A stretch of 39,909 nucleotides of DNA, taken from positions 1 through 39,909 of the IMG/VR virus record IMGVR_UViG_3300010430_000179, one strand, 5' to 3'. This document shows positions 4,531 through 39,909 of the stretch, piece by piece. The DNA is from a virus. The notes beneath the pieces were generated by a model. That model was given only the letters and a program-made list of their open reading frames with translations, had not been told where the DNA came from and did not search any database. Made by a program: the position numbers and the translations under genes. The first letter of the stretch is position 1, and each line of letters opens with the position of its first letter.

Positions 4531-4719
4531 ATGAAAACATTTGTCAAAATATTGAATGAGGTCGCCTTCGGCGGCAATATTGGCTTTGAAGAAATGGTCA
4601 AATTTTATCAAAAGGCCACTCCCGCTGAAATCGCCGAAATGGAGAAAGTTACCAAGGCGAACGACTGGGCCGGCTTTAAAAAGTTAATCAAGCGGGTATT
4701 AAAGGTCAAACTGGTTTAA
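4531..4719 (+). CDS. Capsid-tagged small protein
   Basis: 62 residues, MKTFVKILNEVAFGG..., starting on the base after the previous stop. The tag ends in L-N-E, a gp21-type cleavage site. The remaining about 52 residues are helical and basic at the end (KKLIKRVLKVKLV), with no recognised domain. Probable internal head protein by analogy with T4 IP proteins; body function unknown. Confidence 0.65.
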   Translation: MKTFVKILNEVAFGGNIGFEEMVKFYQKATPAEIAEMEKVTKANDWAGFKKLIKRVLKVKLV

Positions 4720-7959: not shown

Positions 7960-8799
7960 ATGAAACTATTATGCGAATTGACCGATAATGTCCGCATCAC
8001 TGAGGATATTGTCGACCTTGGAGAAGGCAAAAAGCCGCGAAAAGATATGTATATCGAAGGCATCACTCTCCAGGGCGAAGTCAAAAACAAAAATAACCGT
8101 GTATATCCCAAGGCCATTCTTGGTGAGGCCATCAAAAAGCATATTGATGAATTTATGAAAGTCGGCCGGGCGGTTGGTGAATTAAATCATCCCGTTGAAA
8201 AATCCTCAGAAATCAATCCGGACCGCATATCGCACCGGTTTGTTGAGGTTAAAGAGGATGATAATAATTACATCACCAAAGCTCTGGTTTTGAATACAAC
8301 TCACGGGACGCAGGTCAAAAACCTGCTCAGCGGCGGAGTGAAGATGGGTATATCATCCCGTGGATTCGGCGATGTAAAAGAGTCGGGCGGCGCGAGAGTC
8401 GTTCAGTCCCTTTACCTTGTATCCCTTGGGGATATCGTAACAAATCCCTCTGCGCCGAATGCTTTCGTCAATGCAGTAATGGAAAACACCGAGTGGGTTT
8501 GGGAAAATGGCATCCTTGTCGGGAAGGATTTATCTGAGGACCTCGATGAATATAAGGATGCACTGGAAAAATCATCCCAAAAAGACCGAGATGAAGTGGC
8601 TATAAGCTTATTTAAAGAGTATTTATCCACCATCTCCGAAAAAATTGAAAAATCTGAAACTTATGGCCTTTCTGGTCCTGATAATGTTTTGATTGCAAAA
8701 GGCAACAAAAAAGATATGCATAAAATGAGAAAAGAAAAAGGTAAAGGTTTCGTGGTTTGGAATACGCCGGGCGGAAAAATCGGCGACAAAATGAAATAA
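7960..8799 (+). CDS. 21: Prohead core protease (gp21-like)
   Basis: 279 residues; T4 gp21 has 212. The protease core is clear: EGITLQGEVKNKNNRVYPKA (about 33-52), AVGELNHP with probable catalytic His77, NPDRISHRFVEV, and GGVKMGISSRGFG with the nucleophile at Ser132 or Ser133, then IVTNPSAPNAFV. The enzyme cuts scaffold, capsid and internal proteins after [LI]-x-E. Beyond residue about 230 there is a basic extension (KKDMHKMRKEKGKGFVVWNT) with no T4 counterpart I can place. GGGG-type ribosome site upstream. Sits between core and scaffold genes as in T4. Confidence 0.92.
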   Translation: MKLLCELTDNVRITEDIVDLGEGKKPRKDMYIEGITLQGEVKNKNNRVYPKAILGEAIKKHIDEFMKVGRAVGELNHPVEKSSEINPDRISHRFVEVKEDDNNYITKALVLNTTHGTQVKNLLSGGVKMGISSRGFGDVKESGGARVVQSLYLVSLGDIVTNPSAPNAFVNAVMENTEWVWENGILVGKDLSEDLDEYKDALEKSSQKDRDEVAISLFKEYLSTISEKIEKSETYGLSGPDNVLIAKGNKKDMHKMRKEKGKGFVVWNTPGGKIGDKMK

Positions 8800-9176: not shown

Positions 9177-9908
9177 ATGGACCTGAAGAAAATTTTGGAA
9201 AAATACTTCAAGGAACAGCTTTCCGAAGAGGCACTGACAGAAATCACCACCTTATTTGAGGCGGCGGTTAATGAAAAGGTCAAAGAGGCCATTGCCGAGA
9301 CGGAGACCACCCTGGAAGAATCCAATAAGGCCGAAATGGAGAAATTCAAAGGTGAGTTGGTCGACAAACTTTCCGAGTATACGAAAGTCGCCGTTGACGA
9401 ATTTATCGATGAAAATCGTCCGGCCATCGAATCCGATGTGAAAGTCAAAATTGCCGAAGGCATTGCACAGGGCATAACGAATGTTCTGAAAGAGCAATAT
9501 ATTAAGGTGCCGGAAGGCGAGACCGATGTTGTTGCCGATTTGGAAACCAAACTCCAAAAGCAGGAAGGCAAATTGAACGAGTCCATCAATTCGGATATCG
9601 ACAACAAAAAGCAGATTCTGGAATATGAGAAGGCATTGTCCTTCAAAAAACTGGTATCTGAGGCCGACCTGACCGATGTGGATGCCGAGAAAGTCCTGGA
9701 TTTACTGGACGGCATTGAGGCCGACTCCATTGAAACCTTTGAAGAGAAAACAAATATTATCATTGCAAAGGTGAAGGAAGACGGTAAAGCGGACGATGAT
9801 GATGGTGACGATTCGCATAACGACCTGAATGAAAGCATCAATGATGACGATGCCGATGACGGGGCCGGCGGCGGAGACGATTCAGAAATCGACCAATATT
9901 TGCCTTAA
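9177..9908 (+). CDS. 22: Prohead scaffold core protein (gp22-like)
   Basis: 243 residues (T4 gp22: 269). Almost wholly helical and highly charged, with glutamate/lysine-rich heptads, as expected of the major scaffold. It starts MDLKKILEKYFKEQLSEEALTE. Two LNES motifs (around residues 137 and 218) and other L-x-E sites fit digestion by gp21. The end is a strongly acidic tail (DDDDGDDS, DDDADDGAGGGDDSEIDQYLP). Codons look biased as in highly expressed genes. It lies between protease and capsid genes. Confidence 0.85.
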   Translation: MDLKKILEKYFKEQLSEEALTEITTLFEAAVNEKVKEAIAETETTLEESNKAEMEKFKGELVDKLSEYTKVAVDEFIDENRPAIESDVKVKIAEGIAQGITNVLKEQYIKVPEGETDVVADLETKLQKQEGKLNESINSDIDNKKQILEYEKALSFKKLVSEADLTDVDAEKVLDLLDGIEADSIETFEEKTNIIIAKVKEDGKADDDDGDDSHNDLNESINDDDADDGAGGGDDSEIDQYLP

Positions 9909-25060: not shown

Positions 25061-25480
25061 ATGAGCATTTTAAATCTCAGTTATCCTGTAAGGGAAATCA
25101 TGCTGTGCACGGTATCCGGCGCAGTGGTGGATACCGATAAGCGGAAATTCGTTGGCGACATCGTTGCGGTGCGTCAACCGGATATAGGCGCAGGTTTGCG
25201 CGAACTCAAACGATATCTTTGGTTAAGAGTTGAGGGGTTAGAAGAGAGTGACTGGGGATTATTAGAAGCAGAAACCGATTTTGAAAAAAGACGGTTTTGT
25301 ATACATCTCGAAAGATTAAAACAATTCAATAGCAATTTCGACCCACAGAAAGCAGCAGACCCGGATATAATTTATCAGCCATTTTTGCCGGTTGATGATG
25401 ACGGTCTCTTTGTTTTCGACTCAAATCCTATCAATGTTCTTGGTTTAATTTATGATAAGGAATTTGGGATTTACCTCTAA
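25061..25480 (+). CDS. Unknown protein upstream of giant fibre
   Basis: 139 residues. It contains VREIMLCTVSGAVVDTDKRKFVGDIVAVRQPDIGAG, a mixed strand/helix middle and a PFLPVDDDGLFVFDSNPINVLGLIYDKEFGIYL end. No family recognised. The stop overlaps the start of the giant fibre (TAATG), suggesting tight coupling, possibly an adaptor or chaperone for it. Confidence 0.55.
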   Translation: MSILNLSYPVREIMLCTVSGAVVDTDKRKFVGDIVAVRQPDIGAGLRELKRYLWLRVEGLEESDWGLLEAETDFEKRRFCIHLERLKQFNSNFDPQKAADPDIIYQPFLPVDDDGLFVFDSNPINVLGLIYDKEFGIYL

Positions 25481-28400
25481 TGGCAATTTCACAAATAAAT
25501 CAATCTGACTCGACTTTTCCAGAAGACGGGCTCACTGATACTTTAGTTCATACCGTTGGTTCAGGTACAGACCGGCTTTTAATCGTATTAGTCGGTTGGA
25601 ATTCCTCTGGTTCTCATAGGCCGGTCACTGGCGTTGTTTGGGACCCAACCGGGGCGAATGAAGCTTTATCTTTGGTCGAAGGGATAAATTCTGAGGATGA
25701 TGCGGCATGTGCAACCTATATTTTAGCTGCTCCAACAGTCGGTGCGAGCAAAGATATCGTGGTCACATGGGATTCGGCTCCTGCCGGCCCGAAATCAATA
25801 ATCGCTTTTACACTCACCGGCGTTGACCAATCTTCCCCTATTGCAGATATCGGCAGTGTTGCTGACCAGTCTGTCGATACTTTACAAACGACAATATCTA
25901 CTTTATCTGGTGATTATGTTGTATGTCATGCCAATCAGGAACTTGGCTCAACGAACAATTTTGACTGGACAAATTCTACCATTACCATCACGGAAGTCCA
26001 GGATGAAACGGAAGATTCTGGTTCACCGGAAAGTCATTTCGGCGGCGGATATGGTTCAGCATCTTCGACTTCGGTCACGGTTCAAGTTGATGCCAATGAT
26101 GCCGACCATATGACAATGCAGGCCGTTGCCATTGCTCCAACCGGAACAGGCGGCTGTCGAGTTAGTGGAGAAGGTTCTTGCAGGCGAACAGCCACAAATG
26201 AAAATGTTAGCACATTTGGTGCGGCAGGTCAAGGCCGAGATTATACCACTTTATCTGGATGGGAAACGGATACTGACATAAATCTGGTTTCGGCGGCTCA
26301 GTCGGAAGTTCTGGAACTTTATGACGACCAGGCCATATTTGATGATGGAATCGGCGTTGCAGGGGCAACCACAAACGCATCTTATTTCCGTATTATGCGT
26401 CCGGCTGATGGCGAAGGCCATGATGGGACTCCAAATAATGGTGTTCATATCCAAAGGGCTTCTGCGGATTCATCAACCATCGATGTCGATGAAGATTATT
26501 TCCAAGCTCAAGATTTAATTGTATCCCATAATCGTCCCGCATCATCCACTCAAACTTTATGTATACGGTCAGAAGATGCCGGTGATTTTAGGAAGTGGAT
26601 CGGTATAATTGTTGCATTCACCGATAACTCTCCCGGCACGGCCAGAGGAATATCACTTCGTGGTGATGTCGATATCGTTATAAATTCATTATGTAATGAC
26701 GTTGAAGGATATGCATTTGATTCACAGGCCGGTTCCGGCACAAAGAATTATTTCCTGAATTGCGTTGCGGCAAATGGTGGTGGCGATGGATTTAGAGTTT
26801 CAGGCGGCGTGACAAATGGCGTCATTGCAATTAACTGCATTGGATATGGTAATGCCGGAGAGGATTTCCAAGACCCGTCCGCTGAAACGGAATGGGATTT
26901 AACAAATTCATCCCATAATGCATCTGAAGATGCAACGGCGGCGGATTTTACAAGCGGCCGCGGGTCACAGACCTTTACCTTTGTCGATGCCGGAAATGAC
27001 GACTTTCATTTAAGTGAATCAGATGCCGGTGCGAGAAATTACGGAAAAGATTTATCCGAGCAAGACCCATTTTGCTTTAACGATGATATTGATGGGGATA
27101 TTTATGGTGCGGACAGCGGCTCTTGGGATATCGGTTTTGATGAACCGGACGTGGCCACTGACCGAGAATTTACCTCAACCGCAAATATCGTCCATAGCAC
27201 ATCTTCAGACGGGAATGCAACCAGAGAATTTGCCTCTGCGCCGACCATAACTCATTCAATCACTTCTGATGGCGACCAAGACCCGTGGGGACTGGCCGAT
27301 TCACTCAGCGTGGTTGTTGGTGCAAATCAGACCGGAGACGTTGAGGATACTTGGATTGATGATGAAGCAGCGGTTTGTTGGGATGAAGAGACCGGTTCTC
27401 CGGGTTTAGACGTCCGATTTACATTTGGCCTGATTCCGCCGAGCTTTGACGTGGACGGGGCAATTATGTCCGTTTATGTGGCACATTCCTATGATGGGAA
27501 TCCGGCACATCTCATCAAATTACAAGTATGGAATTATGATTTAGCGCAGTGGGATGATGTCACAAATAATTCCACTGATTTTCCAACCACTGCCGGAATT
27601 AGCTCAGTTGAAACTTTTATTTTAGGGGATGGTGATAACTGGCCGGTTGCAAATGGCGGACTGGATGAATATGTTTCGTCCGGCCGGGAACTGCAATTAA
27701 GATTTGACCACTTATCAAGTGGAAATATAAATCATGCTTTTTGCGTTGAATACCTAAAATTGGACGCCGGGCATTTTCACTCATCAACGAGTATTGTCCA
27801 CTCGATTACATCGGACGCCAATGCTCAGCGGGAATTCGCCTCTGCGCCGACCATAACCCATGTAATCAGCTCCGATGTCAATGCTCAGCGGGAATTTGCA
27901 TCGCAGGCTGATATTGTCTTCGATATTTCATCGGATATATTTAAATCCGCTTTATTTGTATCGCAGGCGGACATCGTATTTGATGCCACGGCGGACATAA
28001 ATGCAACCAGAGAATTCGCATCGCAGGCGGATATTGTCCACGATATCGTTTCGGATGCCAATACCGAGAGAGAATTTGCGGCTCAAGGCGGGATATGGAC
28101 GATAACCCATTCAATCAGCTCCGATATTCACGTTACGAGAGAATTTGCATCGCAGGCCGATATTGTTTTCGCAACCAATACTCCGGCCATTGCTGCCGAG
28201 CGAGAATTTGCATCTGCTCCGGCCATCGTATTTGATACCGAATCTGACGGCCAAGCTGACCGGATTTTTGCATCGCAGGCGGACATCGTATTTGATATCA
28301 ATGCCGATATCAATGCAACCAGAGAATTTGCATCCACGGCAGGCATAGTTTTTGCAACCAATACGCCAGAAATTTTTACCGAGCGACAATTCGCCTCTGC

Positions 28401-31155
28401 ACCGAGCATTGTTTTTGCCACTTCATCCGATATTTTTACCGAAAGGGAACTGGCATCCACGGCGGATATCGTTTTCTCGATGGATTCACTTGGGCGGCGG
28501 AATATTTGGTTGACATCGCAGGCCGATATTGTTTTTGCAATCAGCTCAGATATTCAGGTTGTTTCCGATTTTGACGTGACCGCCAATGTGGTCTTTGATA
28601 TAACTTCCGATATTTTTACGACACGGGAATTCACCACAACTGCGGATTTGGTATTTAGCCTGACTTCGGATATAGAAAAATCTGCTTTATTTGTATCACA
28701 GGCCGATGTGGTATTTGCAACCACCTCAGATGCCAATGCTCAGCGGGAATTCGCCTCTGCGCCGACCATTTCATGGGATGCTCAGTCGGGCGGCTTATCA
28801 ACTGAGAGAGAATTCGCATCGCAGGCGGACATCGTATTTGATGCCACTTCTGACATCGAAGCCGAGCGACAATTTACATCGCAGGCCGATATTGTATTTG
28901 ATACCGCATCTGATATTCAAACTGAGCGACAATTCGTATCCACGGCAGGCATAGTTTTTGCAAGCACGTCCCATATCCAGGCCGAAAGAGAATTCGCTTC
29001 GCAGGCGGACGTGGTCTTTGATACCGCTTCCGATATAAGCACAGCACGGGAATTCACATCGCAGGCCGATATAGTTTTCGATATTTCATCGGATATTTTA
29101 TACACTGCCGACTTTGATGTATCACCGAGCATCGTTTTTGCAACAAATAATCCGGACCCACAGGCGGAACGGGAATTTTCCGTCAATCCGAGCATCGTTT
29201 TTGCATTAACTTCCGATATCACGCACGAGCATAATTATTCGGCACAGGCCGATATTGTTTTTGCAACCGTTTCTGATATCAACCAGACGATGGATTTTGC
29301 ATCCACTGCGGCCATTGTTTTTGATATAACCTGCGGCCCGACTGCTTTAGACCACGGCCATTTCTTTCATGTGGAACCGGACATAGTATTTGCCACGAGT
29401 TCCGATATTAATCGGGAATATCAATTTGCATCGCAGGCGGATATTGTTTTTGATACCGTTTCTGACGGCAATCAAAGCATGATATTTGCGGTGCAGGCCG
29501 ATATTGTCCACGATATTGTTTCGGATGCCAATGCCGTGCGAGAATTTGAACCCGGCACTCATATTCAAACTGATATCACTTCCGATGTCAATGCTCAGCG
29601 GGAATTTGCATCGCAGGCGGATATTGTCTTTGATTTGGTATCGGATGTCAATGCCGAGCGACAATTTATTCTATTTCCGCCACCTGATATTGAATTTATA
29701 ACTCCAAAACCTGCGGGGCAGGCCGAGCGACAATTTGCATCGCAGGCGGATATTGTTTTCGCAACAGAATCGGATATTAAGCGGGGATATTTCTTTACAT
29801 CATCGCCGAGCATCAATTTTGTAACAAATAATCCGGCCATCTCCACTGAGCGACAATTTGCATCGCAGGCCGATATCGTATGGGACATAAACGATATTGA
29901 CCACAAATTGCAAAACACTTTCCTGATTCAGCCTTCGATTATTTGGGATATTACCGACCCAGTCATTGAAGTCGAGCGACATTTTAGCTCTCAGGCCGAT
30001 ATTGTCTTTGATATATCTGACCCCGAGATTGACCATGCACATCTGTTTTCCTGTAACCCAGGAATAGCTTTTACGATGCGGTCTTTGATGCGGACAAATA
30101 CAGAGTTTATTGTCCGGCCAGATATTTTCTTTGAAACCAATAATCCGGTTATTTCGACTGGTGGCACTCCGCGGCTTTTTGCATCGCAGGCCGATATTGT
30201 ATTTAATACCGAATCATTACTCATCGGGGCAACAAGGCTCTTTCAGTCGCAGGCGGATATCGTTTTCGACATCTCTGACCCCGAAATTAATAAAGAAAAC
30301 CGCTTTGAGGTGCAACCGGACATCGTATTTGATATTGAAACGGACATCCGGACCGTCCGGACATTTGCATCGCAGGCGGATATCGTATGGGATATCTCCG
30401 ACCCCGACCCCGCAACCGAGCGAGAATTCGCCACTGGGCCGGCAGTCGTATTTGATATCCAATCAGCCGGTGCCAATACTGAGCGAGAATTTGCATCACA
30501 ATCCGATATTGTTTTCGCAACCACTTCCGATGCCGAAGCCGAGCGCGAGTTTACGGTACAGGGAGACGTGGTTTTTGATACCACATCGCATATAACAACC
30601 GATAGAAATTTTGCTTCCCAAGCAGATATTGTTTTCGATACCGAGTCTCAGATTAATTTAGAGAGGCTTTTTACGGTGCAGAGCGATGTGGTATTTAATG
30701 CTCTGGCCGGTATAATCCGACAGGAACGGCAATTTGCCACTCAGTCGGATATCGTTTTCAGCACAGAATCGTTATTAAAACAAATATATAATTTTGCTTC
30801 AACCTCATTAATTGAGTGGGAAATTCCGGCCAGTCCGGTAAATATGTTCAAGACCAACTTATTTCAAAGCCATCCGCTTATTGTCTTTGAAATGATGGCT
30901 CAGATAAATACTGAGCGACTGTTTGCAAGCACGGTTACATCAAATAATTCCAATATTGGAATTTTATGGCGAACAACAAATCCGGACCTGAAATTAACTC
31001 GACTTCCGGTCCTTAGAAACTTCGCCTCAACGGTAAATATAATTGTAAACGTAAACAGCTTGAATATTTTGAATATGAGTTTAGACGACTTATTTCCATC
31101 AACGGCTAAGTCGCTAACTCCGAAGCAAACGACCACGTTGATAGGAATTAATTAA
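25480..31155 (+). CDS. Giant modular fibre with about 55 twenty-residue repeats
   Basis: 1,891 residues. Modules in order: residues about 1-218, a surface-protein-like beta domain (DRLLIVLVGWNSSG, ATYILAAPTVGASKDIVVTW); about 225-555, a right-handed beta-helix-like region (VDIVINSLCNDVEGYAF, GDGFRVSGGVTNGVIAINCIGYGNAG); about 562-600, two repeat units; about 600-765, an inserted beta domain; about 765-1865, over fifty tandem units of consensus REFASQADIVFDISSDI plus three residues. The end lacks an obvious collar or lectin domain. Family knowledge: such repeats usually make trimeric fibre shafts. The target and the exact site on the virion are unknown. Confidence 0.75.
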   Translation: MAISQINQSDSTFPEDGLTDTLVHTVGSGTDRLLIVLVGWNSSGSHRPVTGVVWDPTGANEALSLVEGINSEDDAACATYILAAPTVGASKDIVVTWDSAPAGPKSIIAFTLTGVDQSSPIADIGSVADQSVDTLQTTISTLSGDYVVCHANQELGSTNNFDWTNSTITITEVQDETEDSGSPESHFGGGYGSASSTSVTVQVDANDADHMTMQAVAIAPTGTGGCRVSGEGSCRRTATNENVSTFGAAGQGRDYTTLSGWETDTDINLVSAAQSEVLELYDDQAIFDDGIGVAGATTNASYFRIMRPADGEGHDGTPNNGVHIQRASADSSTIDVDEDYFQAQDLIVSHNRPASSTQTLCIRSEDAGDFRKWIGIIVAFTDNSPGTARGISLRGDVDIVINSLCNDVEGYAFDSQAGSGTKNYFLNCVAANGGGDGFRVSGGVTNGVIAINCIGYGNAGEDFQDPSAETEWDLTNSSHNASEDATAADFTSGRGSQTFTFVDAGNDDFHLSESDAGARNYGKDLSEQDPFCFNDDIDGDIYGADSGSWDIGFDEPDVATDREFTSTANIVHSTSSDGNATREFASAPTITHSITSDGDQDPWGLADSLSVVVGANQTGDVEDTWIDDEAAVCWDEETGSPGLDVRFTFGLIPPSFDVDGAIMSVYVAHSYDGNPAHLIKLQVWNYDLAQWDDVTNNSTDFPTTAGISSVETFILGDGDNWPVANGGLDEYVSSGRELQLRFDHLSSGNINHAFCVEYLKLDAGHFHSSTSIVHSITSDANAQREFASAPTITHVISSDVNAQREFASQADIVFDISSDIFKSALFVSQADIVFDATADINATREFASQADIVHDIVSDANTEREFAAQGGIWTITHSISSDIHVTREFASQADIVFATNTPAIAAEREFASAPAIVFDTESDGQADRIFASQADIVFDINADINATREFASTAGIVFATNTPEIFTERQFASAPSIVFATSSDIFTERELASTADIVFSMDSLGRRNIWLTSQADIVFAISSDIQVVSDFDVTANVVFDITSDIFTTREFTTTADLVFSLTSDIEKSALFVSQADVVFATTSDANAQREFASAPTISWDAQSGGLSTEREFASQADIVFDATSDIEAERQFTSQADIVFDTASDIQTERQFVSTAGIVFASTSHIQAEREFASQADVVFDTASDISTAREFTSQADIVFDISSDILYTADFDVSPSIVFATNNPDPQAEREFSVNPSIVFALTSDITHEHNYSAQADIVFATVSDINQTMDFASTAAIVFDITCGPTALDHGHFFHVEPDIVFATSSDINREYQFASQADIVFDTVSDGNQSMIFAVQADIVHDIVSDANAVREFEPGTHIQTDITSDVNAQREFASQADIVFDLVSDVNAERQFILFPPPDIEFITPKPAGQAERQFASQADIVFATESDIKRGYFFTSSPSINFVTNNPAISTERQFASQADIVWDINDIDHKLQNTFLIQPSIIWDITDPVIEVERHFSSQADIVFDISDPEIDHAHLFSCNPGIAFTMRSLMRTNTEFIVRPDIFFETNNPVISTGGTPRLFASQADIVFNTESLLIGATRLFQSQADIVFDISDPEINKENRFEVQPDIVFDIETDIRTVRTFASQADIVWDISDPDPATEREFATGPAVVFDIQSAGANTEREFASQSDIVFATTSDAEAEREFTVQGDVVFDTTSHITTDRNFASQADIVFDTESQINLERLFTVQSDVVFNALAGIIRQERQFATQSDIVFSTESLLKQIYNFASTSLIEWEIPASPVNMFKTNLFQSHPLIVFEMMAQINTERLFASTVTSNNSNIGILWRTTNPDLKLTRLPVLRNFASTVNIIVNVNSLNILNMSLDDLFPSTAKSLTPKQTTTLIGIN
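27157..31062 (+). repeat. About 60-bp tandem coding repeat array
   Basis: Imperfect tandem units averaging 60 bases (20 codons), interrupted once at about 27280-27770. The best-conserved codons spell FASQADIVF. Individual units differ by synonymous as well as amino-acid changes, and some are 21-24 codons long. Within the giant fibre gene. Confidence 0.85.
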
Positions 31156-31989: not shown

Positions 31990-32343
31990 ATGACGAGATT
32001 AACAGAAAATATCTATGTTGGGCGTGATAATATAAACACTTTGGAATTTCGGGTTAATGGGATTTTGACCCCGCTTAACCCGATTTCCAAGGTCGACTTG
32101 GTTATCCCTTGTCTTGATATCACGATATCCGATGAAGTTCCAACCGAATTTCCGCTTAAATGGATTCAAACTCCAGACGAGATAGGTGTATTTAAATTCC
32201 AAGTTGGGTATACTCTATCAAATCAGCCTTATGTCGAAAAACTTGTAAATGGAATCCATAAATCGGCGTTGTATATTTATGGTTCCGGCTCAGCGAACGG
32301 GAGACATTGGGCCACCTTTTGGTTGGACGTTGATATACTATGA
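31990..32343 (+). CDS. Small beta-rich virion-type protein
   Basis: 117 residues: TENIYVGRDNINTLEFRVNGILTPLNPISKVDLVIP, then GVFKFQVGYTLSNQPYV and HWATFWLDVDIL. It looks like a single Ig-like or jelly-roll beta domain. No specific family recognised. AACGGGAAGG precedes the start at a distance; it lies directly after the decoration-type gene. Confidence 0.55.
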   Translation: MTRLTENIYVGRDNINTLEFRVNGILTPLNPISKVDLVIPCLDITISDEVPTEFPLKWIQTPDEIGVFKFQVGYTLSNQPYVEKLVNGIHKSALYIYGSGSANGRHWATFWLDVDIL

Positions 32344-32356
32344 TAAAAGAGGTCAC

Positions 32357-32641
32357 ATGAAAACTTTTGTTCAAATATTGAAAGAGGCATCCGGCAAAGA
32401 TTCGGATTATGTTCAGCGTGGGTTAGAAGACCTTATTGATGATTTTAAACGGGTAAAAGAAGAAAAGCACATGGTCCCGATATTGCAATGGGTCAAAGAC
32501 CGGCTTAACCAATCTTTTCCCGATGGAGACGTGACCGATGCCGATATCACCGACCTTCTTTCTGAACCCGGCGCACGTTCTGCTTTGAAAAAATCCAAAA
32601 TGAGCAAATCGGAAGTCGCTGATATGGTTTTAAATTTTTAA
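32357..32641 (+). CDS. Capsid-tagged small protein
   Basis: 94 residues from the ATG at 32357; AGAGG upstream and the tag MKTFVQILKEASGKD support this start over a longer frame from 32249. L-K-E at 8-10 is a gp21-type cleavage site. The body is helical (VQRGLEDLIDDFKRVKEEKHMVPILQWVKDRL, then KSKMSKSEVADMVLNF). Probable packaged internal protein; body function unknown. Confidence 0.65.
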   Translation: MKTFVQILKEASGKDSDYVQRGLEDLIDDFKRVKEEKHMVPILQWVKDRLNQSFPDGDVTDADITDLLSEPGARSALKKSKMSKSEVADMVLNF

Positions 32642-32650
32642 GAGGTAAAA

Positions 32651-32896
32651 ATGAAAACTTTCATCGAAATTTTAAAAGAGGGTGCGAGCGAAGATACCGA
32701 CCTTGAGTTTGTCGCCGACCAGTTTGTAAACGTTGAAAATTCAACGGATAAAGAAATGATTGACCATTTGACGGCAGAGACCGGTCTCGATAAAAAGGTC
32801 ATTACAAAAATGGTCAAAAAAGAGCGAACAAATTTTATGAATAAACCATTGGCGTCCGTGGACTCACAGGTAAAAATACTCAGAAAATATTTATAA
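32651..32896 (+). CDS. Capsid-tagged small protein
   Basis: 81 residues starting MKTFIEILKEGASED, with the L-K-E cleavage motif at 8-10. The body (DLEFVADQFVNVENSTDKEMIDHLTAETGLDKKVITKMVKKERT) is helical. The gene directly follows another tagged gene with similar layout; the bodies do not obviously resemble each other. Probable internal head protein. Confidence 0.65.
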   Translation: MKTFIEILKEGASEDTDLEFVADQFVNVENSTDKEMIDHLTAETGLDKKVITKMVKKERTNFMNKPLASVDSQVKILRKYL

Positions 32897-32910
32897 GGGA
32901 GACTGAAATT

Positions 32911-33300
32911 ATGTTACAGGGACCATTTTCAAGCTATGTATCAGGCTTTTTTATCAAATGCCTGGAAAATTTGGCATCCGCCAAGATGTGGATGTTTTTG
33001 CTGCCGTTCATTGTATCCACGGCTTTCATGGGAGTGTTTTTGGGCTCTTCTCTATATTACGTTAAAACGAGTCTCCTTGCGGCAGGGATAACGCCAGAAC
33101 AAATGGATATGATTATCGGACGACTGGCGATTGTCGGCGATGTTTTTATCGCCTGGTGCACGTTTAACGTGTCACTGGCATCGGTTATCATCGCAGTGCG
33201 GGAGATTTTTAAAGTCAAAAAGATTCAGGCTCTGGCCGAAATACCAAAAACCGAAGACGGCAAACAGGCCGCAATTGAAATAAATTTGATTAAAACCTAA
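32911..33300 (+). CDS. Two-span membrane protein (possible holin)
   Basis: 129 residues. Two hydrophobic segments: about 27-50 (MWMFLLPFIVSTAFMGVFLG) and about 72-95 (AIVGDVFIAWCTFNVSLASV), followed by a charged cytoplasmic-looking tail. Size and topology suit a class II-type holin but I recognise no family. Near a candidate spanin at 34723 and a membrane-anchored coil protein at 33572. GGGAG ribosome site. Confidence 0.5.
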   Translation: MLQGPFSSYVSGFFIKCLENLASAKMWMFLLPFIVSTAFMGVFLGSSLYYVKTSLLAAGITPEQMDMIIGRLAIVGDVFIAWCTFNVSLASVIIAVREIFKVKKIQALAEIPKTEDGKQAAIEINLIKT

Positions 33301-33315
33301 AAGGAGCAAGCGAAC

Positions 33316-33555
33316 ATGCGGTATAAAGGGGAAGTCCTTGACGGACTAACATTAGAAGAAGGTGGGCCAGCCCAAATTTTAGTCCCGGCCATAATCGATA
33401 AATCGATAAAAAGCTTGGATAAAGAGAAAAAGGCACTGATTGGTGCCAAAATGGCTCCACCGGAAGTTAGAAAACTCTTAAAAGATGCGGCTTTGAAAAT
33501 CAATGATGCTCAAAAACTTCTCGATATGGCGAAACTGCACAAATCTTGGGGTTAA
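33316..33555 (+). CDS. MRYKGEVL-tagged small protein
   Basis: 79 residues, MRYKGEVLDGLTLEEGG then a helical body (KSIKSLDKEKKALIGAKMAPPEVRKLLKDAALKINDAQKLLDMAK). The first 12 residues are nearly identical to the N terminus of the protein at 34219, also at nucleotide level, while the bodies differ. L-E-E in the tag fits a gp21 cleavage rule. Possible second type of capsid-targeting tag; inferred. Confidence 0.6.
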   Translation: MRYKGEVLDGLTLEEGGPAQILVPAIIDKSIKSLDKEKKALIGAKMAPPEVRKLLKDAALKINDAQKLLDMAKLHKSWG

Positions 33556-33571
33556 ATAAAAGGAGACTGAA

Positions 33572-33910
33572 ATGCAATTATCACCGATGACAATTTTATT
33601 AGGTCTCGTGCCTGTAATCGGCATCGGGGCAGGTTTCTTTTTTCTCGGGCCACTGAAGAATATGTTCAAAAATTTCGGCAAAGAGAAAAAGCATAAAGAG
33701 GCTCAAATCGCCGGAGAGACCAAGATTAAAGAGCTGAGTGGCAAATCCTCAGAGGTGGTCGTGCGGGTTAAAAATTTGGAGAAAGCAGCAACCGATACAA
33801 AACAAAAAATTAAGGCCGAAGTTGAGGCTTCACAGGCGCGAGTGGATGCCATCGTTGCATCCGACCAGACCCTCACCGACTTGGCCACAGATTTCGATAA
33901 GGAGTGGTAA
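33572..33910 (+). CDS. Membrane-anchored coiled-coil protein (possible inner spanin)
   Basis: 112 residues. One hydrophobic segment at about 7-26 (TILLGLVPVIGIGAGFFFLG) followed by a charged alanine/lysine-rich coil (KEAQIAGETKIKEL ... DTKQKIKAEVEASQARVDAIVA). This layout is that of an inner-membrane spanin or other membrane-tethered coil. No sequence match claimed. GGAG start site. Confidence 0.45.
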   Translation: MQLSPMTILLGLVPVIGIGAGFFFLGPLKNMFKNFGKEKKHKEAQIAGETKIKELSGKSSEVVVRVKNLEKAATDTKQKIKAEVEASQARVDAIVASDQTLTDLATDFDKEW

Positions 33911-33912
33911 AA

Positions 33913-34206
33913 ATGGTCGATTATTTCAAAGACGTGCCCGGAATTGATGGTGATAAAAAATTCGGCTCAGTCGAAGAGCGTTTGGGTGAGTTGGGTAGAA
34001 CCAAAGAAGGCATGAAAGAAAAACGTGGGACTGCCAAAATCAAACGGGCGGCGGAGCAGATTGAAATGGCAATCAAACTTCTGGCCGATGCTCGAAAATT
34101 CCCGATTTATACCGATACCGGAATGAAGGCATCCAAGGAAGAAATCCAAATGTTAACTAAACTCAAAAAAGAACTCCAGGCCAGAGTCGAAAATTTAAAC
34201 GGATAA
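33913..34206 (+). CDS. MVDYFKDVPGID-tagged small protein
   Basis: 97 residues. The ATG at 33913 with GGAGTGG upstream is chosen over an earlier in-frame codon. The tag MVDYFKDVPGID is identical to those at 35252 (one change) and 35628. The body is helical and charged (VEERLGELGRTKEGMKEKRGTAKIKRAAEQIEMAIKLLADARK). L-G-E in the body is a possible gp21 site. Function unknown. Confidence 0.6.
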   Translation: MVDYFKDVPGIDGDKKFGSVEERLGELGRTKEGMKEKRGTAKIKRAAEQIEMAIKLLADARKFPIYTDTGMKASKEEIQMLTKLKKELQARVENLNG

Positions 34207-34218
34207 AGGAATAAAAAT

Positions 34219-34695
34219 ATGCGTTATAAAGGGGAAGTCCTTAAGGGATTAACAAAATTGGAAGAAGAAAAACTTCCGAAAGGTGCGGTCAAATTTAGCA
34301 AAGGAAAATTGGCCTATGTTGCACCAAAAACCGGCAATATGAAAGGCACCGTCACCGTATGGGAGTGGAAGGATAAAAGCAAATCATGGATTGAGTGGTG
34401 GACGATGACTCCGGACCAGTTCAAAGCCGAATTCGGCAATGTATTGAAAGAGGGAGTCGGGGCCGGCCCGATGTTTACCGATGGCTCATGGTCAGATGCA
34501 AAAGATAACCTCATGATACTTTTTGAAGAGGTTGAAGACCAACTTTACCAAGTCCGACAATCGGCACCAAATGACAGTGCCGAAGCAAAAGATGCTCAAA
34601 AAGCAGAAGCCACTTGGGATAAAATCCAGAGAGATTTTGTGAAAATTGAAAAAGCGGCAACTGCGTTTTTCAAAAAACATAAAGCCGTTTTATAG
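34219..34695 (+). CDS. MRYKGEVL-tagged protein
   Basis: 158 residues, beginning MRYKGEVLKGLTKLEEEK, like the protein at 33316. A strand-rich part follows (GTVTVWEWKDKSKSWIEWWTMTPDQFKAEF, about 40-75) and then a helical end (DNLMILFEEVEDQLYQVRQS ... KIEKAATAFFKKHK). L-E-E sits just after the tag. No family recognised. Confidence 0.6.
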   Translation: MRYKGEVLKGLTKLEEEKLPKGAVKFSKGKLAYVAPKTGNMKGTVTVWEWKDKSKSWIEWWTMTPDQFKAEFGNVLKEGVGAGPMFTDGSWSDAKDNLMILFEEVEDQLYQVRQSAPNDSAEAKDAQKAEATWDKIQRDFVKIEKAATAFFKKHKAVL

Positions 34696-34722
34696 AAAAA
34701 ATTGTTCAAAGGAGATTGACTT

Positions 34723-35238
34723 ATGCGTAAATTTATTATAACATTGGTTTGTATAATTGCGCTTTTATACGGATGCGCACCATCGGAGTATAAACCTTAT
34801 GTGCCACCGAAAGTAGAGTTTGAGAAAACGGAAAAATACATTCTCGACTTATCGGCGTTGCAAAAGCCGGATAAACCAAATTATGTGGCCTTGGATAAGG
34901 ACTTTCAGCCAGTCACGGCGGAGAATCCAGGGCAGGCGGCATACTTAGCCTTTACCCGCGATGAATTTAAAAAGATTATGGCTTTGTCGGCCTCATATAA
35001 TGCTCAGCGGGAACTTTTGACCGACCACGAAGATTTGGTCAACGTTTACATTGCGGAGATAAATGCTCTGAAGGAACTGGTCGCATTGCGGGAGCAAATC
35101 ATCCTGCAATATATCGAATTATATGCGATGTCCGAAAATGCTTATCGGCAGGAGCGATACGAGCATAAATGGGATAACGCTGAAAATAAAATTGTTCAGG
35201 TCTTAATGATGGCCGGAATTGTTTTACTAATGCTTTAA
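34723..35238 (+). CDS. Lipoprotein, candidate unimolecular spanin
   Basis: 171 residues. A signal peptide ends in a lipobox LLYGC (Cys18). The soluble part is long and helical (EDLVNVYIAEINALKELVALREQIILQYIEL). The C terminus is hydrophobic (IVQVLMMAGIVLLML), a likely membrane segment. Lipobox at one end and membrane segment at the other is the layout of u-spanins such as phage T1 gp11, which fuse inner and outer membranes in lysis. No endolysin was found here. The last segment is short (about 15 residues), so confidence is moderate. Confidence 0.5.
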   Translation: MRKFIITLVCIIALLYGCAPSEYKPYVPPKVEFEKTEKYILDLSALQKPDKPNYVALDKDFQPVTAENPGQAAYLAFTRDEFKKIMALSASYNAQRELLTDHEDLVNVYIAEINALKELVALREQIILQYIELYAMSENAYRQERYEHKWDNAENKIVQVLMMAGIVLLML

Positions 35239-35251
35239 AAGGAGACCGAAA

Positions 35252-35626
35252 ATGGTCGATTATTTCAAAGACGTGCCGGGGTTAGATGAAGCAAAATCAA
35301 AACTGTATGATATCCGAGCAGCAGGAGATGGTTATGCAGTTTCCGGACCGATGAAACCAGGGCAAAAATATCACGATGCACCTGATGTCAGAAGTCATGC
35401 AGATGATGGCCTTTTTGATAATTATGCACAGGCCGCGGCAGCAGTGAAAAAATTAGGCGGCGAAGATATAAAAGCCGTCACACAGAATTTAATCGGTGAT
35501 ATCAATAGTGCAATGGGCTCACTGGAAAGTCTGAAAAAGCATGTGAAAATGAATAATACCAAGGGCAAAAAAGAAACTTTTAAAACCCTGATGACATCCA
35601 TCGGGTTTATAAAAAAAGGAATATAA
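35252..35626 (+). CDS. MVDYFKDVPGLD-tagged protein
   Basis: 124 residues. Tag MVDYFKDVPGLDEAK, then GDGYAVSGPMKPGQKYHDAPDVRSHADDGLFDNYAQAAAAVKKLGG and a helical tail (NLIGDINSAMGSLESLKKHVKMNNTKGKKETFKTLM). L-D-E right after the tag fits the gp21 rule. The tag DNA matches the other two copies over more than 20 bases. Body unknown. Confidence 0.6.
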   Translation: MVDYFKDVPGLDEAKSKLYDIRAAGDGYAVSGPMKPGQKYHDAPDVRSHADDGLFDNYAQAAAAVKKLGGEDIKAVTQNLIGDINSAMGSLESLKKHVKMNNTKGKKETFKTLMTSIGFIKKGI

Positions 35627-35627
35627 A

Positions 35628-35972
35628 ATGGTCGATTATTTCAAAGACGTGCCCGGAATTGATGACGAAAGTCGTGCGGTAATGGAAGGCGCAAAACGCA
35701 TCGTTTTAAAATCACCGATTGTCGGGTCAGTAAATGGTAAAGATTCGGGCCAACCATATCGTGCCGTTATTTGGCAAAAAGCCGGGAAGTGGTTATTTGG
35801 CATCGAGCAGTCATTTCAAGGAAAAGGATTTACAAAACAAAGTCTTACCGGCTCTGGTTGGCATTTGGCCGACCTGCTCGACCACGGCGATTTCATTTAT
35901 ATTGATATGGGGCAAAAGTGGGGAGCAAGAGGTATCTCCGGTGCCACAAAAGAGGCCTTAAAACACATTTAA
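35628..35972 (+). CDS. MVDYFKDVPGID-tagged protein
   Basis: 114 residues. After MVDYFKDVPGIDDESR the body is a compact alpha/beta domain (PIVGSVNGKDSGQPYRAVIWQKAGKWLFGIEQ, then DHGDFIYIDMGQKWGARGI). The body is unrelated to those of the other MVDYFK proteins. No clear L-x-E site in the tag. Begins two bases after the preceding stop. Confidence 0.6.
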   Translation: MVDYFKDVPGIDDESRAVMEGAKRIVLKSPIVGSVNGKDSGQPYRAVIWQKAGKWLFGIEQSFQGKGFTKQSLTGSGWHLADLLDHGDFIYIDMGQKWGARGISGATKEALKHI

Positions 35973-35981
35973 GGAGTTTGT

Positions 35982-36713
35982 ATGGGAACGATTAAAGTCC
36001 CCGAATTAAAACAGTATATCTATCGCAAACTGGGACATCCGGTTATCAACGTTGAAGTCGATGAAATTCAATTGGAAGACTGCATCGATGAAGCTTTAAA
36101 AACCTATATTGAATCCCACTATGATGCCTGCGAGATAGGATATATTGAGGTCGAAGTTCAGGCCGGTGTCAATGAGTACACTTTACCCGAATCTGTACAG
36201 GATGTGATGGAAGTCCTGAATTACGAAGGGCAAAGCTCGTCAATTTTCCCGTGGGCGGATGAACCAATTTTATGGCGCAGACCGACCACCTTGTGCGAAC
36301 CGTGCGGCTATTATGACGTTGTATCGGTAGAGGTCGCACGTCAAAGACTGCAATTAATTGAAGACACTTTTAAAAAGTGGATTCTATTCGAATTTAATCA
36401 GCTGACCAAAAAATTAGTTTTTCCCGAAGCACCTGAATCTGCAGGGACCCGAATCCTAAAAGTGGCGCAGGCTTCAGTCGATACCAATGAAACCGGTTTG
36501 GTTACTGATTCCTTGTGGCTCAAAAATTATGCCGTTGCCTTGGCACGGATTCAGTGGGGAGTCAACTTAGGTAAATATTCAGGAGCACAGTTGCCCGGCG
36601 GCGTTGAAATAAATGCACAGGATATTGCGGCACAGGGCGAAGCCGAAAGGGAACGATTAATACTGGAATTGGAAGAAAAATATAGCCTTCCTCCGGACCC
36701 AGTTTTTGCATAA
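35982..36713 (+). CDS. Neck protein (gp13-like)
   Basis: 243 residues. Motifs: VPELKQYIYRKLGHPVINVEVDEIQLEDCIDEALKTYIESHYD (5-47), then YTLPESVQDVMEVL, and DSLWLKNYAVALARIQWGVNLGKYSGAQLPGGVEINAQDI near the end. I associate this with neck/structural proteins of T4-like cyanophages. The neck joins head and tail and blocks DNA leakage. Flanked by small tagged proteins. AAGGAG ribosome site. Confidence 0.65.
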   Translation: MGTIKVPELKQYIYRKLGHPVINVEVDEIQLEDCIDEALKTYIESHYDACEIGYIEVEVQAGVNEYTLPESVQDVMEVLNYEGQSSSIFPWADEPILWRRPTTLCEPCGYYDVVSVEVARQRLQLIEDTFKKWILFEFNQLTKKLVFPEAPESAGTRILKVAQASVDTNETGLVTDSLWLKNYAVALARIQWGVNLGKYSGAQLPGGVEINAQDIAAQGEAERERLILELEEKYSLPPDPVFA

Positions 36714-36722
36714 GGGATAAAA

Positions 36723-37232
36723 ATGAAATCCTTCAAAGATATATTAGAGGTTGAAAAGCCATTGGAAACAGTTTCTGCAAGTGGCCGTTTATATATTGGG
36801 GCAGAAGACGGCGGCATGATTTCCATCGGTGAATTAAGGCCAGGCTCAAAGCCAAATTTTAGACCGCTTTTAAAATTGGCAAAACAAAAGGGAGTCACCC
36901 TCAATAAAGTCGCCAGAGACCCTGCGGCGCGGACGGTTTCCAAAGAAGACTGGAAGATTTTAAAAGAGGCCAGAGGATTATTACCCGGCACGATTGTTGC
37001 AACGGGACCTCATTTGGGATTTTCTATCCGGCAGAGCAGTGATGGCATGTTTGAAATCCAATATGGCAGGAGTTATGGGTCACAATCCGGCTTAACCTTA
37101 GACCAACTCAAAAAGACGGTCAACGACTGGGTCAAAAAAGAAATCAAGAAAACCGAAAAGGTAATGGACGAGCTTAAATTTTTAAACCGTTTCATGGCGA
37201 AACGAATCGACAATAAGGTAAAGGACTTATGA
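36723..37232 (+). CDS. Capsid-tagged protein
   Basis: 169 residues. Starts MKSFKDILEVEKPLE; I-L-E fits gp21 cleavage. The body has a beta part (SGRLYIGAEDGGMISIGEL) and IVATGPHLGFSIRQSSDGMFEIQYGRSYGS, then helices to a basic end. No family recognised. The stop overlaps the next tagged gene (ATGA). Confidence 0.65.
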   Translation: MKSFKDILEVEKPLETVSASGRLYIGAEDGGMISIGELRPGSKPNFRPLLKLAKQKGVTLNKVARDPAARTVSKEDWKILKEARGLLPGTIVATGPHLGFSIRQSSDGMFEIQYGRSYGSQSGLTLDQLKKTVNDWVKKEIKKTEKVMDELKFLNRFMAKRIDNKVKDL

Positions 37233-37966
37233 AAAAATTCAATCAGATTTTAAATGAGGCCAAACTGGGGACGAGAAATAAAGCATGGGGCTTATTCGGT
37301 CAATTGGCAAACCGACAAATCAAAAAACCTGCGGTCACTTTCATGGCGCACGTTGAGGCTCTTGCAAAGGTTCTCAAGATTAAAGTGGAGGTCGCACGGG
37401 ATTTAATGGACTCCAAGGTGGGCCGGCACTATGCGGACTCCCTGCCGGATGCCGTTCTGCAGAATCCCACTCCCCTGAATTTAATCAAACACCCCTGGAT
37501 AAAACGGGAATATCAGGCCTTCAAAAAGGAATATGACCCCGTTGAATTCGCCAGAAGTTTGGGATTCAGTGAGTCGACACTTCAGGAAATTGAGGTGGCA
37601 TATACCGACCTGAAAACCAACAAACAAAAGCGGAAAAAATTCAAAGATGAAAAAGCATTGGCGAAATGGTTGGATAAAGCTGACGTTGTCGTCCATGCAT
37701 ATCTCAATGAGGCGGATAATTGGTTACTGGAAATGACTGACCATCGGCGGAATGCAGAAATAGAAAAGGCCAAAAAACGGATTAATGATTTCTGGGACCG
37801 GTCAAAAGGTGACCAAGCAAAATTCACGGCTCAGATTAATCTCCGGACCAAGAAAATGAAGAAAGTCGAAAAGGTCATGATTTGGGCGGATGCCTTGGAA
37901 GACCAGAATTTCCATAAGGAAGCGGAAGTTGCTTTCAAACGATTAAAGGAACTTGGAGTCAAATAA
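37229..37966 (+). CDS. Capsid-tagged protein, helical body
   Basis: 245 residues, the largest tagged protein. Tag MKKFNQILNEAKLGT with L-N-E cleavage motif. The body is helical and rich in lysine, with DADVVVHAYLNEADNWLLE-like region around residue 150 containing another L-N-E, and a K/E-rich second half. No domain recognised. The basic character would suit packaging with DNA. Confidence 0.6.
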   Translation: MKKFNQILNEAKLGTRNKAWGLFGQLANRQIKKPAVTFMAHVEALAKVLKIKVEVARDLMDSKVGRHYADSLPDAVLQNPTPLNLIKHPWIKREYQAFKKEYDPVEFARSLGFSESTLQEIEVAYTDLKTNKQKRKKFKDEKALAKWLDKADVVVHAYLNEADNWLLEMTDHRRNAEIEKAKKRINDFWDRSKGDQAKFTAQINLRTKKMKKVEKVMIWADALEDQNFHKEAEVAFKRLKELGVK

Positions 37967-37969
37967 GTT

Positions 37970-38140
37970 TTGCAGACATTTATTGAAATATTAGGTCGGC
38001 GGGATAAAATGTCAAAGGGAGCAGGCGATGCTGATAGAGATTTTCGCGACCCTTTGCCTAAATGTCCAGAATGTAAAATAAAAACTGTCAGTAAAGTCGG
38101 CAAATTATGTGTAGATTGTCGGAGAAAGGCGAAAAAGTAA
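37970..38140 (+). CDS. Zinc ribbon protein with degenerate capsid tag
   Basis: 56 residues from a TTG start with GGAG 11 bases upstream. The N terminus reads (M)QTFIEILGRRDKMS, like the MKTFxEIL tag but lacking the glutamate. Four cysteines in CPEC...CVDC (C-x2-C-x13-C-x2-C) form a ribbon. The alternative ATG at 38009 would remove the tag. It parallels the tagged zinc ribbon at 4384. Confidence 0.5.
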   Translation: MQTFIEILGRRDKMSKGAGDADRDFRDPLPKCPECKIKTVSKVGKLCVDCRRKAKK

Positions 38141-38141
38141 G

Positions 38142-38696
38142 TTGGTTGATTACCAAAAACTTATCCGCGATGAAATGTTATATCAGCGTGAGCGTTTATA
38201 TAAACGGTTGAAAAAGGCGGATAATGGCCGTTTAATCGTGGAATATTGGAAAGGCGCAGAGAAATTTTTAGGTGCAGTGCCTGGAATTGACTGGGAGAAG
38301 CAGGGCAACCGGATTTTAATAAAGGAAGAAAGCATCAAAATGAAAACTTTCAGACAGATTTTGGATGAAGAAAAATTACAGGAAGGCACATGGAATCTTC
38401 CATTTAAAGTGGCTCAGGCCAAAAAACTGGCGGCACTGATGAAAAAGCCGGTGCCAACTGGCCCAGCCGGGACAAAAATGCTCAGCGGTCTCATTGGAGA
38501 TGATGACCTTTTTGATGATATCGAAGGTGCATCCCCGCTTGATACTGCCGGAAAAGATGATGCTCGCGATTTAATCAGGGACTGGCTTGTCGATATATTA
38601 ATCGGCGTGAAAAAGGAACCGGATAGATTTGGTGAATTACCGGAACCTGCGGCATTAAAAATTCTGCAGAAAATACGACTGTCAAAACAATATTAA
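38142..38696 (+). CDS. Double-tagged protein with likely internal start
   Basis: 184 residues from a TTG start ((M)VDYQKLIRDE, a weak match to the MVDYFK tag, with AVPGID later). At residue 67 an internal ATG at 38340, with GGAAG 11 bases upstream, opens MKTFRQILDEEKLQEGT, a complete MKTF tag with L-D-E. Two products, full-length and a 118-residue tagged form, are possible. Body: KVAQAKKLAALMKKPVPTG ... DDDLFDDIEGASPLDTAGKDDARDLIRDWLVDILIG. Which start dominates cannot be told from sequence. Confidence 0.55.
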   Translation: MVDYQKLIRDEMLYQRERLYKRLKKADNGRLIVEYWKGAEKFLGAVPGIDWEKQGNRILIKEESIKMKTFRQILDEEKLQEGTWNLPFKVAQAKKLAALMKKPVPTGPAGTKMLSGLIGDDDLFDDIEGASPLDTAGKDDARDLIRDWLVDILIGVKKEPDRFGELPEPAALKILQKIRLSKQY

Positions 38697-38704
38697 GGAG
38701 CAGC

Positions 38705-38986
38705 ATGAAAAATTTCAAAGACATTTTAACAGAGAGGTCGATTTTAGATTTTGTTAAGCCAGGCAAAGAAATTGCTGTCGAAGTTGCCTTGCAAAATGAA
38801 GGTCACGATTTTTATGTGGATTTTGTTACCGCAACTCCCACGGGCGGAAAACATCGGGACGGGATGGAAATCTTGGCAGGCGACAGAAAACGGTTAGACT
38901 CGTTGACCCGAATGCTTAAAATGCTCAAAAAGACCCTGCCTCAAGGGACGTGGACTCTTGCGGTAAACGGAAACAAGTGGATGTAA
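38705..38986 (+). CDS. Capsid-tagged protein
   Basis: 93 residues, MKNFKDILTERSILD with L-T-E cleavage motif. The body begins DFVKPGKEIAVEVALQNEGHDFYVDFVTATP, a beta-rich part, then helix LDSLTRMLKMLKKTLPQG and TWTLAVNGNKWM. No family recognised. GGAG site. Confidence 0.65.
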   Translation: MKNFKDILTERSILDFVKPGKEIAVEVALQNEGHDFYVDFVTATPTGGKHRDGMEILAGDRKRLDSLTRMLKMLKKTLPQGTWTLAVNGNKWM

Positions 38987-38995
38987 GGAGCAAAA

Positions 38996-39514
38996 ATGAC
39001 CACCAGAAATTATCGAGAAATTTTGGAAGGCGGCAGTTTGGATGGCGGTCGCGATGAAGTCGAATTAATTGAGGCCAAGGAGAAATATACATGGGACAAT
39101 ATTAACACGGCTTTGACCATGATGAATATGAGTCCCAAACAAATCGCCAGAGTCGCATCTGCCTTGAAAAAGGTCGTCAAAGAAAACCTGACCGTGGATG
39201 CCTTAAATGAGGTGACAACTGCGGCAACCGGAGTCGGCGATTACAGTCCGCCGTTGGGGATGACCCGCCGAGACTCCGAGAAATTCAGCACGACCACGGC
39301 CATGAAAAAACAGTTTGACCAATGCACCATGCATATGGGCCGCAAAGATATGCTTCAGCATTGCCGGAAAATGGGCTTGTCCCTTGGTCATTTAAAGAAC
39401 GATGACGTCCGAAAAACTCTCAGCAATATGTCCGTTCGCAATAAGCGAAAATTTATGGGCGTGGCCAATGGCGAAGGCGGCGGCTCAACTTACGGAGCAG
39501 GGATGAAGGTATGA
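38996..39514 (+). CDS. Capsid-tagged protein with capsid cleavage-site segment
   Basis: 172 residues. Starts MTTRNYREILEGGS (I-L-E). Residues 69-92 read ALNEVTTAATGVGDYSPP and LGMTRR, closely matching the major capsid segment ALKEKTTTTQGVGDFSP...MLRR at its maturation site. The C-terminal part (KKQFDQCTMHMGRKDMLQHCRKMG ... NKRKFMGVANGEGGGSTYGAG) is unlike the capsid fold. Not a capsid pseudogene: frame intact. The stop overlaps the next start. Confidence 0.6.
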   Translation: MTTRNYREILEGGSLDGGRDEVELIEAKEKYTWDNINTALTMMNMSPKQIARVASALKKVVKENLTVDALNEVTTAATGVGDYSPPLGMTRRDSEKFSTTTAMKKQFDQCTMHMGRKDMLQHCRKMGLSLGHLKNDDVRKTLSNMSVRNKRKFMGVANGEGGGSTYGAGMKV

Positions 39515-39903
39515 AAAAATTCAAGCAAATCGTAAATGAATTCGGACTGATACCACGGCCATCACCTGAAGCGTGGGATAATGCTCATAAAAGGGCGGCT
39601 GCAGAATTTGAGGCAGACGTCCCGACTGCTAAAAAGGTCGCCAAGAATTTCAAGGCCAAATTGAAAATCCACAGGAATGAAATCCCGTCCGGTATGGCAC
39701 AAAGTTTCAGTTGGTTTGAAATACTTTTCAAGGGCGGTGCACGGCTCAGCATGGAACCGAAACAGATGCAACAATATTTCATGGATTTTAAACGGACAAA
39801 ACGGCAATTTTTCTCGAGTCGATATCCGACCTTTTTTAATAAGAAAAATTTTGTGGAGATAGTTGACGACATCAATGAATATTTAAAAAATCTCGAGAGA
39901 TAA
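39511..39903 (+). CDS. Capsid-tagged protein
   Basis: 130 residues, MKKFKQIVNEFGLIP; the tag ends V-N-E, close to but not exactly the [LI]-x-E rule. The body is helical and basic, with WFEILFKGGARLSMEPKQMQQYFMDFKR in the middle and FFNKKNFVEIVDDINEYL at the end. No family recognised. Confidence 0.6.
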   Translation: MKKFKQIVNEFGLIPRPSPEAWDNAHKRAAAEFEADVPTAKKVAKNFKAKLKIHRNEIPSGMAQSFSWFEILFKGGARLSMEPKQMQQYFMDFKRTKRQFFSSRYPTFFNKKNFVEIVDDINEYLKNLER

Positions 39904-39904
39904 A

Positions 39905-39909
39905 ATGAA
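39905..39909 (+). CDS. Start of another gene, cut by window edge
   Basis: ATGAA at the right edge, two bases after the previous stop, reads M-K and would fit another MKTF-type protein. Only five bases are visible. Confidence 0.25.

Follow-up and report, generated by a model that had tools for sequence, protein, structure and literature searches.

Why should several small and otherwise unrelated proteins of one phage begin with the same dozen residues? The question is raised by a T4-type myovirus represented by a 39.9 kb IMG/VR fragment (the complete record, hereafter 'the window'), in which a run of small genes at 32-40 kb surrounds a gene for a neck protein, and three genes of this run open with the peptide MVDYFKDVPG[IL]D, here named tag B. 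The textbook example of a signal by which proteins are packed into a phage head is the capsid targeting sequence (CTS) of phage T4, with the help of which internal proteins have been recognised and foreign ones loaded.

Three gene starts in the window

The preliminary description had reported a common 12-residue start and 26 identical bases for the genes at 33913, 35252 and 35628 (Table 1). Both observations are borne out, with Leu at residue 11 in one copy, and the copies at 33913 and 35628 turn out to be identical over 37 bases, plus three As upstream. If the three tags were encoded independently with the codon usage of the phage, the probability of identical codons would be ~7e-6. A search with the 26-mer allowing up to three mismatches matched these three gene starts and no other place in the window, and nothing in shuffled sequences; a plausible ribosome-binding site precedes each of the three.

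Behind the tag, the three proteins are unrelated, as had been stated: pairwise alignments of the bodies are no better than those of shuffles (z -0.1 to 1.3), and blastp between the proteins gives matches confined to the tag. Simple gene duplication, named in the preliminary description as the explanation that would overturn its own, was looked for and not seen, the bodies being without similarity. The claim that the bodies also differ in predicted structure holds insofar as a beta-rich model is obtained for 35628 and a helical one for 35252, with the tag unstructured in both, and it can be based on nothing but single-sequence models of a quality (pLDDT 48 and 51) insufficient for fold searching. 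Tag-B bodies have no convincing relative in Pfam or PHROGs, and the bodies of 35252, 35628 and G001 70353 (see below) no significant relative in known phages. The Leu-Asp-Glu noted behind one tag is indeed that of 35252. A supposed weak fourth version of the tag at 38142 (MVDYQKLIRD) did not survive, since it is the start of a different, conserved open reading frame whose orthologues begin without the tag, namely with MNQIVHDEID (L004) and MFVEPKDLIREEM (G001).

Table 1. Coordinates of tagged genes and head genes (window positions unless a relative is named)
Feature	Coordinates	Strand	Remarks
Tag A gene, MKTFVKILNE	4531..4719	+	head-gene region; conserved in G001, G005, G006
Portal	5395-7056
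gp21-type prohead protease (Peptidase_S77)	7960..8799	+	PF03420 E 6e-32; presumed propeptide remover
gp22-type scaffold protein	9177..9908	+	T4_CASP E 3e-39; candidate docking partner of tags
gp23-type T4-type capsid protein	at 9980		~33% identity to cyanophage gp23
Tag A gene, MKTFVQILKE	32357..32641	+	body orthologous to tag-B proteins in both relatives
Tag A gene, MKTFIEILKE	32651..32896	+
Tag D gene, MRYKGEVLDGLTLEE	33316..33555	+	two-copy tag with LxE site
Tag B gene, MVDYFKDVPGID (DNA 33913-33948), 97 aa	33913..34206	+	long form MVDYFKDVPGIDGDKKFGSVEERLGE, then unrelated basic body
Tag D gene, MRYKGEVLKGLTKLEE	34219..34695	+
Untagged lipoprotein-like gene, conserved	34723..35238	+	72-74% identity in two relatives; left slot border
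Tag B gene, MVDYFKDVPGLD (DNA 35252-35287), 124 aa	35252..35626	+	short form, LDE at residue 13; unrelated body
Tag B gene, MVDYFKDVPGID (DNA 35628-35663), 114 aa	35628..35972	+	unrelated body; slot directly 5' of neck gene
Neck / head-tail adaptor Ad2 protein	35982..36713	+	phrog_211 E 3e-30; right border of syntenic slot
Tag A gene, MKSFKDILE	36723..37232	+
Tag A gene, MKKFNQILNE	37229..37966	+	C-terminal 80 aa alone behind tag A in G001
Tag A, MKTFRQILDE	38340..38696	+	inside open reading frame opening at 38142
Tag A gene, MKNFKDILTE	38705..38986	+	body orthologous to tag-C protein (MKTTRTRGEMDKIIRE) in G002
Tag-A-like gene, MTTRNYREILE	38996..39514	+	stretch like N-terminal region of major capsid protein
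Tag A gene, MKKFKQIVNE	39511..39903	+
Tag C genes, G001	70604, 72743, 100236(-)
Tag C genes, G002	24526, 28124(-)

Relatives and the exchange of tags

When the whole collection was scanned for the strict F form of the tag, no match was found outside its own record. The F/W form, MVDY[FW]KDVPG[IL]D (11-12 residues), led to IMGVR_UViG_3300037245_004243 (129.5 kb; G001) and IMGVR_UViG_3300043172_001345 (30 kb; G002), both identified via the neck protein together with the tag, and additionally matched L019 and L020/L021. The match in L019 is out of frame and due to chance; that in L020/L021 (DYWKDVPGYD) lies within an acidic protein encoded by a distant phage, no relative was present in the phage collection, and this match was likewise treated as chance because we estimate that about two chance matches are to be expected. 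A relaxed form of the tag combined with a start codon retrieved G001 only, a genome collection scanned for the tag and for the neck protein contained neither, and searches with alignments of the neck protein, the lipoprotein and the shared body yielded no further close relative. The search for the tag DNA suggested in the preliminary description thus leads to three places in the window and to tag B in two relatives, G001 and G002, the only ones that carry it and both of which have the window's region.

The neck protein is 64-70% identical in the two relatives. Between the lipoprotein and neck genes, tags follow one another in the order B, B in the window, C, B, B in G001 and C, B in G002, and the gene directly 5' of the neck gene carries tag B in all three genomes, each time with a body unrelated to the other two. 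Hence, the tag stays in this slot while the body changes. Across the three genomes, the same peptide precedes five unrelated families of bodies. Its DNA is nearly identical within each genome (2 of 12 codons differ in G001), and comparison of the window with G001 reveals, among 12 codons, 3-5 synonymous differences and 1-3 non-synonymous ones, Phe being changed to Trp throughout. Since synonymous codons differ between genomes and the peptide stays, selection appears to act on the peptide, and the overall pattern fits a recent spread of tag B within each lineage combined with such selection.

Besides tag B, we distinguish three families of tags, A, C and D; the likeness of B, C and D to A is one of anatomy, not of sequence. 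Tag A, MK[TSNK][FY]xx[IL][LI]xE, coincides with the T4 CTS in the positions of demonstrated importance and obeys the CTS sequence rule M-K-x-[FY]-x-x-[IFL]-[IL]-x-E when compared with T4 IPII and IPIII; it starts 8 genes in the window, 10 in G001 and 10 in G002, where shuffles average at most 0.02 (0.004 for the window). Tag C, with the core T[RK]xxM[DE][KR]xI, occurs in the relatives, and [LI]xE terminates it in 5 of 5 cases. Tag D, MRYKGEVLxGLT with LEE right behind, stands before different bodies in two copies in the window, and was not seen in the relatives compared.

Tag B and the CTS-type tag A are exchanged on one orthologous body. The protein encoded at 32357 (MKTFVQILKE/ASGKDSDY..., the slash marking the junction) shares its body with G001 70353 (MVDYWKDVPGIADGVKKGHTMHE/AGLDSDY...) and G002 27885 (MDYWKDVPGIDDVLDGKKCKEIIE/AAGLD...), the Smith-Waterman z-scores being 38-46. 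In the alignments, the junctions fall at ILKE/ASGKDSDY, TMHE/AGLDSDY and IIE/AAGLDTTH, that is, the similarity of the bodies starts about where a T4-type propeptide would be cut; for G001 70353, the M of MHE is itself a possible start codon, and the one preferred by a simple gene caller. Gene 32357 lies ~3 kb from the slot, which in G002 is occupied by the orthologue; in G001, 70353 neighbours the slot. A second exchange, of tag A for tag C, relates the body of 38705 to that of G002 24526 (E 4e-9). Only these two exchanges were counted, loose matches to the tag A pattern inside open reading frames being discarded, and interchange of tag B with the CTS on one cargo is observed as one A/B exchange in two relatives. 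The tag swapping proposed in the preliminary description is supported from two sides: orthologous bodies bear different tags, and one slot combines a constant tag with a changing body.

Tag B compared with known packing signals

The anatomy of tag B has an exact precedent in T4, in which IPII and IPIII both begin with MKTYQEFIAE and the first 32 bases of ipII and ipIII are identical (ATGAAAACATATCAAGAATTTATTGCCGAAGC) before different bodies follow. Like the CTS of IPI, IPII, IPIII and Alt, tag B is a short N-terminal peptide on unrelated, mostly basic small proteins; the leader is the sole part common to the T4 internal proteins, of which Ip1-3 block host restriction enzymes (PMC12373910). Charge per residue amounts to +0.050 for tag A bodies (n=27) and to +0.05 to +0.10 for the four unique tag-B bodies, compared with -0.003 for untagged proteins (n=192). 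Both sets of tagged bodies thus exceed the untagged proteins in basicity, and their net positive charge agrees with that of T4 internal proteins, which are basic (PMC9026906). T4 IPI possesses a longer N-terminal stretch in front of its ITE site (MKTFKEFTSTTTPVSTITE), and tag B likewise has short and long forms. The tag-B phage also possesses, as T4 does, a prohead protease of the S77 type and a scaffold of the T4 type.

A strict [LI]xE motif follows tag B in 33913 (LGE26), 35252 (LDE13), G001 70018 (IDE13) and G002 27885 (IIE24), and the non-strict motifs VME20 and MHE23 are found in 35628 and G001 70353. Within residues 8-27, the strict motif is thus present in four of the six tag-B proteins versus a background of 31% (p=0.08, not significant); [LIVM]xE, a relaxation chosen after seeing the data, is present in all six (p=0.003). 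We regard cleavage of tag B as likely; as evidence for its site, these motifs are only suggestive.

In sequence, MVDY[FW]KDVPG[IL]D and MKTYQEFIAE are unrelated. Residues 4 and 7 of the T4 CTS serve targeting, and residues 8 and 10 processing (PMC9026906). Tyr 4 of tag B matches the aromatic residue, but Asp 7, Val 8 and Gly 10 follow, so that neither a hydrophobic residue at 7 nor Glu at 10 is present; moreover, a possible cut falls 13-26 residues from the start, and a T4-type CTS exists in the same phage. As tag B fails the CTS residue rule, we do not file it as a member of the CTS family, and yet it appears to work like a CTS. Two other systems invite comparison. In the giant Salmonella phage SPN3US, gp53 and gp54 are diverged head proteins with identical 15-residue N-termini, which were read as CTS-like (PMC5694885); in contrast to tag B, the bodies are still paralogues (34% identity), and both the phage group and the cleavage motif are different. 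In phage P1, head entry of DarB is directed by N-terminal residues (30 suffice), which act in this way on a reporter as well (PMC9024508); unlike tag B, this concerns one protein, and the Dar proteins are without a common consensus. A literature search brought up no case in which a tag unrelated to the CTS takes its place on the same body, and neither DYFKDVPG nor DYWKDVPG occurs in any of the texts searched.

Because tag B replaces a T4-type CTS on the same body, virion targeting is the role best supported by the sequences, and we consider it rather probable that this T4-type phage uses tag B as a second propeptide for head targeting, one made for scaffold docking, cleavage by the gp21-type protease and delivery of the body with the DNA. 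The N-terminal tag of each small accessory protein would dock on the scaffold core during prohead assembly, as the T4 CTS does, the gp21-type protease would cut behind an [LI]xE-like motif ending at residues 13 to 26, and the body thus released would remain in the head until delivered with the DNA; new cargo would be gained by recombination joining a body to an existing tag, which would make tags and bodies shuffle. What speaks against head targeting is Asp at residue 7 and Gly at residue 10, the strict cleavage motif in no more than four of six proteins, the number of relatives (two only) and the single A/B exchange. If the reading is true, recognition by the core is not limited to a single code, a second and unrelated signal being able to substitute for the CTS on the same protein; tag B would then be an independent loading tag, many injected phage proteins missed by a CTS search would be revealed, and the joining of a body to a 36-base tag would illustrate a route of cargo recruitment.

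More tentatively, it is possible that several unrelated head-targeting codes (A, B, C and D) operate in parallel, each with its own partner or site on the prohead core, that cargo is shuffled among them, and that the place, time or amount of packing and injection depends on the choice of tag. It is rather unlikely that tag B instead docks on another partner or site in the virion (portal, neck or tail) and that its proteins are virion parts, not cargo resembling T4 internal proteins. Such docking would account for the clustering of tag-B genes immediately 5' of the neck gene in 3 of 3 genomes, for the missing CTS residues at 7 and 10 and for clear strict cleavage sites in just four of six proteins; however, the neck gene is flanked by genes with CTS-type tags as well, and the occurrence of one body with a CTS-type tag in the window and with tag B in both relatives fits a single destination.

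That the common DNA is mainly a landing site for recombination, or a by-product of recent copying of gene starts, with a functionless peptide, appears improbable to us: the near-identity of tag DNA within each genome (26-37 bases) and the end of homology near the tag would be explained, but not why the identity begins at the start codon, why synonymous codons have changed between genomes and the peptide hardly, and why the slot has retained its tag over the large divergence to which the neck protein attests. Very improbable, and also at variance with the data, are ordinary duplicates with bodies diverged beyond recognition: identical starts and the tandem arrangement of 35252 and 35628 would be in accord with these, whereas a body with a known orthologue has switched tags, and uniform divergence cannot be the source of near-identical tag DNA next to bodies without similarity. 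We attach just as little probability to a translational or RNA-level control element in place of a protein signal, since, despite the location exactly at the 5' end of coding sequences, synonymous sites vary between genomes, one codon is absent in G002, and 32000-39909 contains no Rfam match.

Capsid-like stretches and mobile domains

A stretch resembling the major capsid protein is found in small proteins of the window (38996-39514), G001 (66705-67016(-)) and G002 (24292(-)), in the last of which a CTS-type tag immediately precedes it; ALNEVTTAATGVGDYSPPLG of the small protein aligns with LKEKTTTTQGVGDFSPILIP in the N-terminal region of the capsid protein (E 3e-5). Proteins of this type are possibly mimics of the capsid protein that are packed in the head. 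The last ~45 residues of the prohead protease appear to form a small mobile domain (window about 8650-8799, L004 5061-5249, G001 105746-105928), which recurs on its own as a CTS-tagged protein in G002 and as an untagged protein in G001. In the window, the 80-residue C-terminal domain of 37229-37966 is preceded by a tag-A region of 160 residues; in G001 (67881-68150(-)) it adjoins tag A itself, and in G002 (about 26500(-)) it follows an untagged region, apparently a case of domain shuffling behind tags.

Finally, the CTS-tagged protein at G001 64707-65159(-) weakly matches the PARP/ADP-ribosyltransferase family (PF00644, E 2e-4, short of the curated cut-off) and is reminiscent of the packaged T4 enzyme Alt, and a 1891-residue protein at 25480-31155 of the window consists largely of many 'FASQADIVFDxxSD'-like repeats. 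In a more distant, AT-rich relative (G004), MISFIEYLSE starts at 7417 and 7824 precede different bodies and form a CTS-like pair.
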